Assembly: GCF_002007645.1 (NCBI RefSeq)
Contig: NZ_CP019791.1
Location: 3,030,593 to 3,094,592 of the forward strand
Origin: Anaerohalosphaera lusitana
Lineage (GTDB): Bacteria; Planctomycetota; Phycisphaerae; Sedimentisphaerales; Anaerohalosphaeraceae
Direction: 5' to 3'
Length of the DNA stretch: 64,000 nucleotides
Below the pieces are notes generated by a model. That model saw only the letters and a list, made by a program, of their open reading frames with translations. It was not told the origin of the DNA and made no database searches. A program made the translations under genes and the position numbers. Below, one piece after another: positions 16,510 to 19,196 of the stretch; the first letter of the stretch is position 1, and the number at the start of each line of letters is the position of its first letter.

Positions 16510-17502
16510 TTAGAGTGTGTGTTCCATTGGGTATTTGAGGTTCCACTGCTTGCGGATATTATCCATTGTGCCCATTATGCGCAGGGTTTCTTCGAGGGGC
16601 ATTTTCGGACTTTGCGTCAGTCCTTCCCTGAGACAGCGGTGCACCTCGGCGGCTTCGTAGTTGTAGCCGTTGCCTTCGAAAGGCACTTCGATGGTTTCGG
16701 TTTTGCCTTCGTCGATGGAGACGGTGGCCTTTGAGGGGCACCAGAACGGTGAGTGTATCTTTATATAGCCTTTTGAGCCGGAGATGGTTGCTTCGCCGGG
16801 CGTTGAGGCCCCTACCGCACAGGAGAGTATTGCGAGAGCGGCGGGTTCATATGAGAGTATGAAGGCGGAAATTTCGTCGACGCCGGTTGAGGCCATGTGT
16901 GCGAGGGCGGCGACTTTTTCGGGGTCCCGCTGGTATACCATCGATGCGAGTGAGATGGCGTAGATGCCGACGTCGAGAAGTGCGCCGCCTGCGAGGTGCG
17001 GGCTGAGGACGCGGCCATCGGGTTCCCAGTCGCCGGAATAGCCGAAATCAGCATGGATCATTTTGGGCGGTCCTATGGTGCCCTGTTCGAGGATATTTTC
17101 GATCTCAAGCATGAGCGGGATGTAGCGGGTCCACATCGCTTCCATGAGAAAGATATTCTTTTCGGCAGCGGCCTGGATCATATGGCGGGCCTGGGTAGCG
17201 TTGAGTGCGAAGGGTTTTTCGCAGAGTACGGCTTTGCCCGCGTCGATGCACTGGAGGGTGTTCTGAGCGTGTGCGGGGTGCGGGGTCGCGATGTAGACTA
17301 CGTCGATGTCGGGATCGCCGGTCAATTCCGCGTAGGAGCCATAGGCGCGGGGGATGTTGTATTCTTCAGCGAAGGCCTTTGCGGTTTCGAGTTTTCGTGA
17401 GCCGACGGCGACCAGTTCAGCGTCTGGGAGGGCCTGCAGGCCTTCGGCGAATTTTCGAGCTATCTGTCCTGTTGCGAGTATGCCCCAGCGTACGGACTTC
17501 AT
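16510..17502 (-). CDS. Gfo/Idh/MocA family NAD(P)-dependent oxidoreductase
   Basis: The 330-residue protein has an N-terminal Rossmann fold (WGILATGQIARKFAEGL), the family motif EKPFALNATQARH near residue 95, and a C-terminal alpha/beta domain. Members oxidise or reduce sugars, inositols or diols such as 1,5-anhydro sugars and trans-dihydrodiols. The start at 17502 is preferred because AAAGG lies 7 bases upstream. The ATG five codons earlier lacks a site. It is divergent from the His-rich membrane gene and has a promoter at 17549-17577. Confidence 0.9.
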   Translation of the reverse strand: MKSVRWGILATGQIARKFAEGLQALPDAELVAVGSRKLETAKAFAEEYNIPRAYGSYAELTGDPDIDVVYIATPHPAHAQNTLQCIDAGKAVLCEKPFALNATQARHMIQAAAEKNIFLMEAMWTRYIPLMLEIENILEQGTIGPPKMIHADFGYSGDWEPDGRVLSPHLAGGALLDVGIYAISLASMVYQRDPEKVAALAHMASTGVDEISAFILSYEPAALAILSCAVGASTPGEATISGSKGYIKIHSPFWCPSKATVSIDEGKTETIEVPFEGNGYNYEAAEVHRCLREGLTQSPKMPLEETLRIMGTMDNIRKQWNLKYPMEHTL

Positions 17503-17548
17503 AGGGTGACCTTTCATCGAACAAAATTTGCGTCTTTTCAGGCCGACT

Positions 17549-17605: not shown

Positions 17606-17635
17606 TTGCAACTAAGTTGCAGAAAGTGTTATTAT
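17606..17635 (+). promoter_or_regulatory. Candidate promoter of the His-rich membrane protein/Fur operon
   Basis: TTGCAA (17606-17611) and TATTAT (17630-17635) are 18 bases apart. The -35 box is inside the first palindrome, and the expected transcription start (about 17642) touches the second. Confidence 0.5.
17607..17621. promoter_or_regulatory. Fur-family operator candidate, copy 1 (7-1-7 palindrome)
   Basis: TGCAACTaAGTTGCA is a perfect inverted repeat with 7-base arms and a 1-base centre, the architecture known for B. subtilis Fur, Zur and PerR boxes. It overlaps the -35 box. Confidence 0.7.
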
Positions 17636-17643
17636 GCTTCAGA

Positions 17644-17658
17644 TGCAACTCAGTTGCA
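17644..17658. promoter_or_regulatory. Fur-family operator candidate, copy 2 (7-1-7 palindrome)
   Basis: TGCAACTcAGTTGCA has arms identical to copy 1, 37 bases downstream, and sits at the expected transcription start. Two identical copies before an operon encoding a Fur-family protein strongly suggest autoregulation. Confidence 0.7.
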
Positions 17659-17694
17659 AAAACAGATTTGAACGATCGTTCTTCGGAGAAGCAT

Positions 17695-18708
17695 ATGGCG
17701 GTAAAGGCACGGATCAAACATATTGGGGCAGAGCTGAAGTCACATGCGCCGTTTACCTTCTTCGGCGCGTTGCTTGGGGTGGCGTTTATGCTGCTTTTCA
17801 AAAACGCGACGGAGTATGGTGAGACCACGCTTTTCCGGATATTCCATCCGATGCACGTGGTTCTCAGTGCGATGGTTACGGCATCATTGTTCAAGGTGCA
17901 CAAGAATACTAAGAACTTTCTGCTTGTGCTGGTGATCGGCTGGGTGGGAGCGCTGGGGGTGGCAACGCTTAGTGATTCGCTGATACCGTATATGGGAGAG
18001 ACGGTTCTAGGGGTGGCGGTGCCGACGCATGGGGATCTGCATGAGGGACATACTGAGCACGAAGAGCCGGAGGGGGTGGAAGATGGGCATGCCGGGCATG
18101 ACCATGAGCAAGCGGCGCATCAAGAGTCAGAGCACGATGGGCATGATCATGGTGCAGCGGCAGATGTTGAGGGTCATGCTCACGAGTATGCCGGGCTTGA
18201 TCATGAGGAAGAGGAACACGGTGAACCTCACAATGAACACGCAGGGCATTATCACGATGAAGAAGCAGCTCATCAAGAGCACCTGGAGCATGAGGAACAC
18301 GCAGGACATGGTCATGCGGAAACGGACCATGAGGAGGCAGGCGGCCATGAAGGACACGATCATGATGGCGGACTGCACATAGGGTTTATCGAGGACTGGT
18401 ACATCGTGAATCCTGCTGCAATATTGGGTGTGGTAATCGCTTTCTGGCTGCCTGCGACAAGGATGCCTCATGGATTGCATGTTCTTATAAGCACGTGGGC
18501 GTCTTCGGCACACATGTTGATGAACACGCAGGCCGATTTCACAGCGACGCTTCTTCTGGGGATACTGATAGTGCTGTTTCTGGCGGTGTGGCTGCCCTGC
18601 TGTATCAGTGATATCGTATTTCCGCTGTTGTTCGTCAAGTCCGACATAAAGGTGTGCAGTCATTGCCATGGGAAACATCATGATCCGAACAGTTGTGAGC
18701 AGGTCTGA
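17695..18708 (+). CDS. Histidine-rich integral membrane protein, putative metal transporter
   Basis: The 337-residue protein has about three membrane helices (near 19-37, 48-67, 74-95), a long hydrophilic loop (112-230), and three more helices (about 237-255, 263-282, 286-315). The loop holds about 30 His plus many Asp/Glu in repeats such as GHDH and EHEEHAGHGH. Helices carry His motifs (HPMHVVLSAM, MPHGLHVLIS), and the tail has CSHCHGKHH. This pattern fits zinc, nickel or similar cation handling, but I recognise no named family. The ATG at 17695 has CGGAG upstream; the frame opens earlier at 17506. Its stop overlaps the start of the Fur-family gene by one base. Confidence 0.8.
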   Translation: MAVKARIKHIGAELKSHAPFTFFGALLGVAFMLLFKNATEYGETTLFRIFHPMHVVLSAMVTASLFKVHKNTKNFLLVLVIGWVGALGVATLSDSLIPYMGETVLGVAVPTHGDLHEGHTEHEEPEGVEDGHAGHDHEQAAHQESEHDGHDHGAAADVEGHAHEYAGLDHEEEEHGEPHNEHAGHYHDEEAAHQEHLEHEEHAGHGHAETDHEEAGGHEGHDHDGGLHIGFIEDWYIVNPAAILGVVIAFWLPATRMPHGLHVLISTWASSAHMLMNTQADFTATLLLGILIVLFLAVWLPCCISDIVFPLLFVKSDIKVCSHCHGKHHDPNSCEQV

Positions 18709-19157
18709 TGAGTACGAGCAATTCTGACAAAAGAGCCAAAGAGCTTCTGAGCAAGGCTAAACTCAGGAGGACCAAGCAGCGGGTAGATATCCTGTCGGCC
18801 TTGCTGGATGGGAGGGGTCCGATGAGCCAGGAGCAGATATCCGACGCGATCGATGGAACTGGGCCCAACAAGGCAACTGTTTATCGCGCAATGGAGAGCC
18901 TGGTGGGAAAAGGGGTTGTGCACCGGGCGTTTGAACGGAACGGGACGTGCTATTTTGAGCTGGGGGACCGATTCGGTGACAGGCAGTGCCATCCGCATTT
19001 TACGTGTACCGAGTGCAACAGGACACATTGTCTGACTGATTTTGAGGTTCCGATGGTGAAATCTCAGAAGGGTTTCCAGGTATCGCATCAGAAGATCGAG
19101 CTGGAGGGAATGTGTCCGCGTTGTGCAGACAGGCAGGAGGATGAGGTGAGTTTGTAA
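18708..19157 (+). CDS. Fur-family metalloregulator
   Basis: The 149-residue protein has a winged helix with the Fur-type recognition region (GTGPNKATVYRAMESLVGKG). The dimerisation part has histidines and two CxxC pairs (CTECNRTHC and CPRC) of the structural zinc site. Its start overlaps the stop of the His-rich gene (TGATG), so translation is probably coupled. The linked operators and the His-rich neighbour favour a Zur-like, zinc-sensing role, but Fur or Nur cannot be excluded from sequence alone. A terminator follows directly. Confidence 0.92.
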   Translation: MSTSNSDKRAKELLSKAKLRRTKQRVDILSALLDGRGPMSQEQISDAIDGTGPNKATVYRAMESLVGKGVVHRAFERNGTCYFELGDRFGDRQCHPHFTCTECNRTHCLTDFEVPMVKSQKGFQVSHQKIELEGMCPRCADRQEDEVSL

Positions 19158-19170
19158 ATCGCTGTTGAAG

Positions 19171-19196
19171 AACTGGGGATTGATGCCAGTTTTTTC
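19171..19196 (+). terminator. Intrinsic terminator of the His-rich/Fur operon
   Basis: Stem AACTGG/CCAGTT with a 9-base loop is followed by a T6 run, 14 bases after the Fur-family stop codon. Confidence 0.7.

Follow-up and report, generated by a model that had tools for sequence, protein, structure and literature searches.

This locus raises the question of what a histidine-rich membrane protein of no recognised family does when its gene runs into that of a Fur-family regulator behind two perfect palindromes, and to which metal the two respond. We examined it within a 64,000-nucleotide stretch of the Anaerohalosphaera lusitana genome (the window), together with related genomes. Our best explanation, to which we give a probability of roughly 60% for the whole chain, is an autoregulated, Zur-controlled zinc-starvation operon in which the membrane protein (MEM) would be a zinc importer.

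Architecture of the locus

The two palindromes lie at 17607-17621 (operator 1, TGCAACTAAGTTGCA, of 7-1-7 form) and 17644-17658 (operator 2, TGCAACTCAGTTGCA), neither assigned to a strand. Their start-to-start distance is 37 bases, as an earlier sequence-only reading of this DNA had stated, and they are the only exact copies of TGCAACTnAGTTGCA in the 4,250,973-base single-contig genome. Their placement at the -35 box and start point of an operon also agrees with a promoter-like site, TTGCAA-18-TATTAT, at 17606-17635 on the plus strand (a consensus match alone, 9/12): operator 1 overlaps the -35 hexamer, which falls inside it, and operator 2 starts 9 bases past the -10 hexamer, close to the expected start point. 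MEM follows at 17695-18708 (plus strand), a protein of 337 residues with six predicted membrane helices and a His/Asp/Glu-rich loop at residues 105-228 which holds 30 His, matching the count of about 30 given earlier. The gene of the Fur-family regulator, probably Zur (149 residues, 18708-19157, plus strand), shares one base with the MEM stop codon, the overlap originally described. The terminator said to close the unit fared less well: a hairpin running into a T run is present at 19167-19195 (plus strand), but it is weaker than claimed, folding at -10.5 kcal/mol (z -1.46) with 18 of 200 shuffles folding equally well, and a terminator consensus scan, which accepts loops of up to 8 bases where this hairpin has one of 9, found none.

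Once mismatches are allowed the pattern becomes less informative. The window held three operator matches with up to three mismatches against 2.58 expected, so the mismatched pattern says little there, and the whole genome held 18 operator-like places with up to two mismatches against three for the reversed pattern, a weak control for this count because its base order differs. Sixteen of these places carry two mismatches; among the 13 that were fetched, nine lie within open-reading frames and four are intergenic, and by eye a metal role was seen in none of the genes beside those four. Promoter-like sites on the minus strand (17631-17660) cover operator 2 and are directed at an oxidoreductase-like gene at 16510-17517. 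Control by the operators could therefore extend to this divergent gene, which had no cluster partner at the other loci compared.

The operator tracks the regulator

Of 59 relatives, the own genome counted among them, 47 encode MEM and 27 carry the exact operator, against 0 of 59 for the reversed control, which is also absent from the A. lusitana genome as an exact pattern. The 30 exact places found in relatives comprise 27 before MEM, two before a Fur gene alone and one before a porin gene. From the 50 stretches around MEM collected from relatives, 49 loci were judged, an operator being counted as present where at least 12 of the 14 fixed bases occurred within 300 nt. Operator and downstream Fur gene were both present in 32 loci and both missing in 15, leaving two discordant cases: L094, with an operator and no Fur gene, and L020, with a Fur gene and an 11/14 site. 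The palindrome thus precedes 33 of 49 orthologous MEM genes, a check that the sequence-only reading had proposed, and the association has a Fisher P of 1.6e-10, to be read with the kinship of the loci in mind, since they are related by descent and do not count as independent events. The operator tracks the regulator, including in two genomes (G023 and G026) where the site stands directly before a Fur gene with no MEM in between; these two Fur proteins score 168 and 166 bits against the regulator profile, compared with 66 and 50 bits for other Fur-family genes at L209 and L101. Given this linkage and the reversed control, a chance palindrome is ruled out.

We also considered and rejected a phylum-wide motif: among 392 genomes searched in the phylum, five had the exact site and three (G063, G400 and G403) the reversed control. 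Two of the five belong to the organism's own family and three fall beyond the order (G207; G340, which has two sites; G398), so that three site-bearing against three control genomes in the 392 searched puts occurrence outside the order at control level; the open-reading frames within ~1.5 kb of these outside sites included, by eye, neither MEM nor the regulator. One of them (L191:1501-1515, G398) lies ~83 bases before a NifX-like gene, which at control frequency is possibly chance.

The emphasis that had been placed on a double operator holds for the window, but among relatives this is a minority state: 25 of 51 MEM upstream regions carry one site and nine carry two, spaced 31 to 39 bases, which makes the double operator the rarer form (9 of 34 loci with an operator). 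In one genus the arms are altered at four loci, with TGCAAA on one side or on both (TGCAAATCATTTGCA in L060, L063 and L066; one arm in L073). The regulators of these loci carry VDKATVYR or TDKATVYR, compared with PDKTTIYR in two genomes of that genus with the usual site (L054; L061 and L103 of G030). The window regulator reads PNKATVYR and its site is the usual one, so the arm change goes with the first residues of this stretch only. These few cases, perhaps a single event, would fit co-evolution of regulator and site.

Zinc genes beside the unit in relatives

In three relatives the MEM-Fur pair continues into zinc-transport genes: ZnuA (158 bits) and two ABC-3 permeases in L081; ZnuA (150 bits), an ABC ATPase and an ABC-3 permease (115 bits) in L020; and, in L070, ZnuA (145 bits) and a partial gene which clusters with the L020 and L081 permeases and has no Pfam match of its own. 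The operators before these runs keep 14/14 bases in L070 and L081 and are degenerate in L020 (11/14). The single ZnuA match in the A. lusitana genome, spanning profile positions 105-263 of 263, has no operator, the best site reaching at most 10/14 within the 3,465 bases searched. In G034 a second exact operator (L106:1501-1515) lies between an upstream FeoB-type gene and an OprB-family porin gene (198 bits), whose product is a candidate outer-membrane member of the regulon.

On the minus strand at L056:1503-3066, some 3 kb distant from a MEM-Fur pair, two genes group with the ABC permease and ATPase genes of L020 and L081. A small, secreted-looking Cys/His protein follows the Fur gene at L110:1955-2374, L109:639-1061, L062:2865-3245 and L020:7036-7338; the L110 protein (G026) comes near DUF2946 at 19.9 bits, under the cut-off of 23.7, and the others were read by eye.

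Among the closest known systems is the Desulfovibrio znuABC-zur_D operon. The sequence-only reading had set the palindrome arms apart from the boxes of B. subtilis, and they do differ, but the box had already been predicted as a Zur box in Desulfovibrio: in the accessible part of that report ATGCAACnnnGTTGCAT is placed before znuABC-zur, and the D. desulfuricans site contains TGCAACTGAGTTGCA exactly, with half-sites equal to those of the operator and a three-base spacer (PMC545781). As the half-sites are those of this predicted Zur box, the operator is not new in kind. The likeness comes from the box and from operon content, a Fur-family gene and zinc uptake genes lying in one operon under the site; the Desulfovibrio operon is given as znuABC-zur, and the same portion of the paper mentions no MEM (PMC545781). 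A further parallel is offered by the ZepA loci, also of the PVC superphylum, in which, as far as the available text goes, a Fur-family gene lies near an unusual zinc-acquisition protein; however, ZepA is an exoprotein with a PEP-CTERM domain and MEM a six-helix membrane protein (PMC10957091). With ZnuA and ABC genes in three relatives and the half-sites of the Desulfovibrio Zur box, zinc is likely to be the metal in A. lusitana as well.

The regulator

The regulator matches PF01475 at 43.4 bits (cut-off 23.1) over residues 17-131, upholding its original assignment to the Fur family, and the genome has three further Fur-family genes. Among 33 regulators compared, the two CxxC pairs of the structural zinc site (C100, C103, C136 and C139) are invariant, as are H72, E84, C94, H95, H97 and C108. 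Residue 89 (window 18972-18974) is Cys in 32 of the 33 and Phe in the window's copy. The Zur sensory ligands of E. coli are reported as His77, Cys88, His96 and Glu111 in the parts of the literature available (PMC4219657, PMC6103462). H72 aligns with His77, the only one of these ligands that matches an invariant residue; Cys88, His96 and Glu111 have no residue-for-residue counterpart, Cys89 lying three residues from Cys88 in the alignment and Cys108 two residues beyond Glu111. In the alignment Phe89 lies close to known sensory ligands, and the window regulator may have an altered zinc affinity. According to the accessible text of a review, E. coli and actinobacterial Zur share no strictly conserved zinc-coordinating residue at that site (PMC4219657, PMC6103462), which makes a further variant plausible and means that residues alone cannot prove zinc. 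In the same sources E. coli and actinobacterial Zur have in common with the regulator the Fur fold, the two CxxC pairs and a His at the place of His77, and their boxes often lie over the -35 and are doubled in some promoters, as here, whereas their operator arms differ from TGCAACTnAGTTGCA (PMC4219657, PMC6103462).

None of the curated PerR, Fur and Zur models comes near its cut-off; the Zur model NF008646 gave 41.5 bits against a cut-off of 167, and the PerR model 45.9 bits. As NF008646 covers one kind of Zur (PRK11639), we call the regulator Zur-like and not an equivalog member. That the regulator, taken by itself, is a zinc sensor we regard as very probable.

MEM, a protein family of two repeated halves

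As in the sequence-only reading, no family could be put to MEM. The window protein had no match above cut-off in Pfam or NCBIfam (best DUF4257, 15.1 bits against 27). Sixty-nine members gave matches to 47 Pfam families at E up to 1, DUF4257 being the commonest among the best 25 (28 members, best E 7.5e-4), and NCBIfam matches were likewise weak and scattered (best 25 of 34). A MEM profile found one chance-level match among PDB sequences (E 0.59) and so no solved relative by sequence, and no paper on MEM was recognised in a literature search that had most subscription journals outside it.

In these 69 members H13, H50, D98, P102, G134, H148, H151, S155, P190, C191, D195 and P199 are invariant (numbering of the loop-less relative L096) and H47, S97 and S194 nearly so. 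The two halves of MEM align with each other as an internal 3+3 duplication (hhalign probability 95.2, E 2.8e-8), which pairs HPxHVxLS with PHxGHVLxS and TLSDxxxP with CCxSDxxFP, giving one HxxH and one SD per half. By mean K+R counts the N-terminus (3.2), loop 2-3 (3.0) and loop 4-5 (1.8 in 8 residues) are more likely to be inside, and loop 5-6 (0.1) and the His loop (1.6 in 44 residues, with 9.0 D+E) to be outside; loop 1-2, outside in the proposed topology, has 1.6 in 11 residues, per residue barely below loop 4-5, and speaks neither way. Acidic and poor in K and R, the His loop is probably periplasmic, and with three helices per half this topology would make the repeat an inverted one, with one HxxH-SD set towards each side of the membrane.

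Fold comparisons gave no close relative. The complete window protein was modelled at a mean pLDDT of 72, with its His loop disordered, and returned a single meaningless Foldseek match; the model of L096, with six long helices (pLDDT 93, pTM 0.90), returned nothing at E <=0.001. The core showed no clear match to a known non-metal transporter; such a match was what the sequence-only reading had named as counting against it. The best structural matches of the loop-less model were TRIC cation channels (5h36, 5wuc and others), with Z 9.7 to 8.0 and rmsd 2.8 to 3.2 over 130 to 134 of 193 to 197 residues at 9 to 12% identity, starting at MEM helix 2; the top one had Z 9.7 and rmsd 3.0 over 132 residues, and the next structural group reached Z 6.3. 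This likeness may reflect a common helical-bundle arrangement, as bundles often reach such Z scores. ZIP zinc transporters (BbZIP 5tsa and others), likewise membrane metal proteins, matched weakly (Z 5.5, rmsd 4.4, 150 residues), and one of the 69 members matched PF02535 at E 0.0036, with no family-level sequence similarity seen.

The loop is the variable part of the protein. Its His count ranges from 1 to 30 across 48 members, the window copy having the maximum; it is short in 26 remote Planctomycetota members, and the 20 Omnitrophota proteins examined, at 199 to 228 residues, have too few residues for a long one. The long His loop is, on these comparisons, an add-on of the present group. Such variation, together with the placing of MEM beside ZnuA and ABC genes in three relatives, would suit a Zur-regulated MEM that is no transporter and instead serves as a membrane-anchored periplasmic zinc buffer or partner feeding another importer, such as ZnuABC. 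We think this unlikely: the helical core holds the invariant residues, the loop none of them, and relatives with short loops retain the core, so it is the core, and not the loop, that is conserved.

Distribution and remote relatives

Wider sampling of the phylum (392 genomes) found MEM in 35, of which 26 lie outside the order; in Omnitrophota, the phylum of L022, 58 genomes out of 193 sampled have it. Among the MEM loci, L016, L017 and L019 belong to Planctomycetota, and L020, with MEM, regulator and zinc genes, to Sedimentisphaerales. The Nitrospirae locus L023, with 31% identity over residues 114-308, mostly within the His loop, gave no MEM match. In a plasmid collection one partial MEM (42% of the query) was found, at L228:6001-6270 on a plasmid of Peptoclostridium acidaminophilum (Bacillota), with 61% identity over 90 residues and a feature table that is blank at that place.

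Metal genes adjoin MEM in 4 of 20 Omnitrophota loci (Pfam-confirmed), and none were recognised by eye in the other 16. L215 has FeoB, L208 a CDF gene and L220 a CsoR-type repressor with a CusB-like protein; in L209 a Fur-family gene lies upstream of MEM, with DUF1007 and NicO genes nearby, a combination that we take to be the make-up of the zinc system ZevAB. In the available part of the source ZevAB has a role in zinc-limited growth (PMC3872050). MEM leans loosely towards metal genes, and its link with a zinc-type regulator is found in the present group. The loop-less type of Planctomycetota (L096, L100 and L161) sits, by eye, with NifX-like proteins and ParA/MRP-like ATPases that carry ferredoxin-like Cys motifs, and in L100 a ZIP gene (81.7 bits) is close by.

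These neighbours bear on two further explanations. The first is that the unit serves a metal other than zinc (nickel, cobalt, manganese or iron) under a regulator of Fur, Nur or Mur type, as PerR and Fur models scoring as high as the Zur model would allow, along with the FeoB, NicO and CsoR-type neighbours of remote MEM relatives and the G034 operator between FeoB and porin genes. The continuation into ZnuA in three loci argues against it, although ZnuA-type proteins can also serve manganese. The Cys and His residues of the regulator and the Desulfovibrio Zur box (PMC545781) weigh on the same side, and we hold another metal to be distinctly improbable. The second, that MEM exports or detoxifies metal and is induced by a surplus of it, has in its favour two of the 20 Omnitrophota loci, with a CDF efflux gene or a CsoR-type repressor and CusB-like gene, and is very improbable, since importer genes follow in three relatives and an operator over the -35 suits metal-dependent repression, the established behaviour of the Fur family, by which an exporter would be silenced just when metal is in excess.

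A probable zinc-starvation operon

We therefore return to the zinc-starvation operon with MEM as importer. Zinc-bound Zur on one or both TGCAACTnAGTTGCA sites would block the promoter; when zinc is scarce Zur would release, and MEM and more Zur would be produced. MEM would lie in the inner membrane as two homologous three-helix halves in opposite orientation, its periplasmic His/Asp/Glu-rich loop would collect zinc, the HxxH and SD pairs of the two halves would create one outer and one inner metal site, and zinc would be handed inward to the Cys/His-rich tail of the protein. Since MEM matched no known transporter family, we argue for transport from its residues and context. The earlier proposal of a self-contained metal unit, with zinc most likely, gains from the operator-regulator linkage, the ZnuA/ABC neighbours, the Desulfovibrio box and the regulator residues. 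Against the zinc-importer operon stand Phe89, a PerR score slightly above the Zur score, a ZnuA gene in the same genome that carries no operator, the 15 of 49 MEM loci with neither operator nor Fur gene, and four Omnitrophota metal neighbours that point to different metals.

Much is known about Zur regulons, in which the membrane component is mostly an ABC, ZIP or TonB system. In the present unit regulator and operator belong to a known kind, and the MEM family, whose architecture makes metal transport plausible, is without a name in the libraries searched. More tentatively, we suggest that MEM could represent a new family of metal transporters in which two three-helix repeats are inverted and their HxxH and SD pairs create two zinc sites, one outward and one inward. 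In one planctomycete order this family may have been brought under Zur control and have acquired a periplasmic, zinc-collecting loop with as many as 30 His. The operator offers a regulon probe for the order, and the fixed His, Asp and Cys residues of MEM a precise test of a further metal-transporter type in these phyla.
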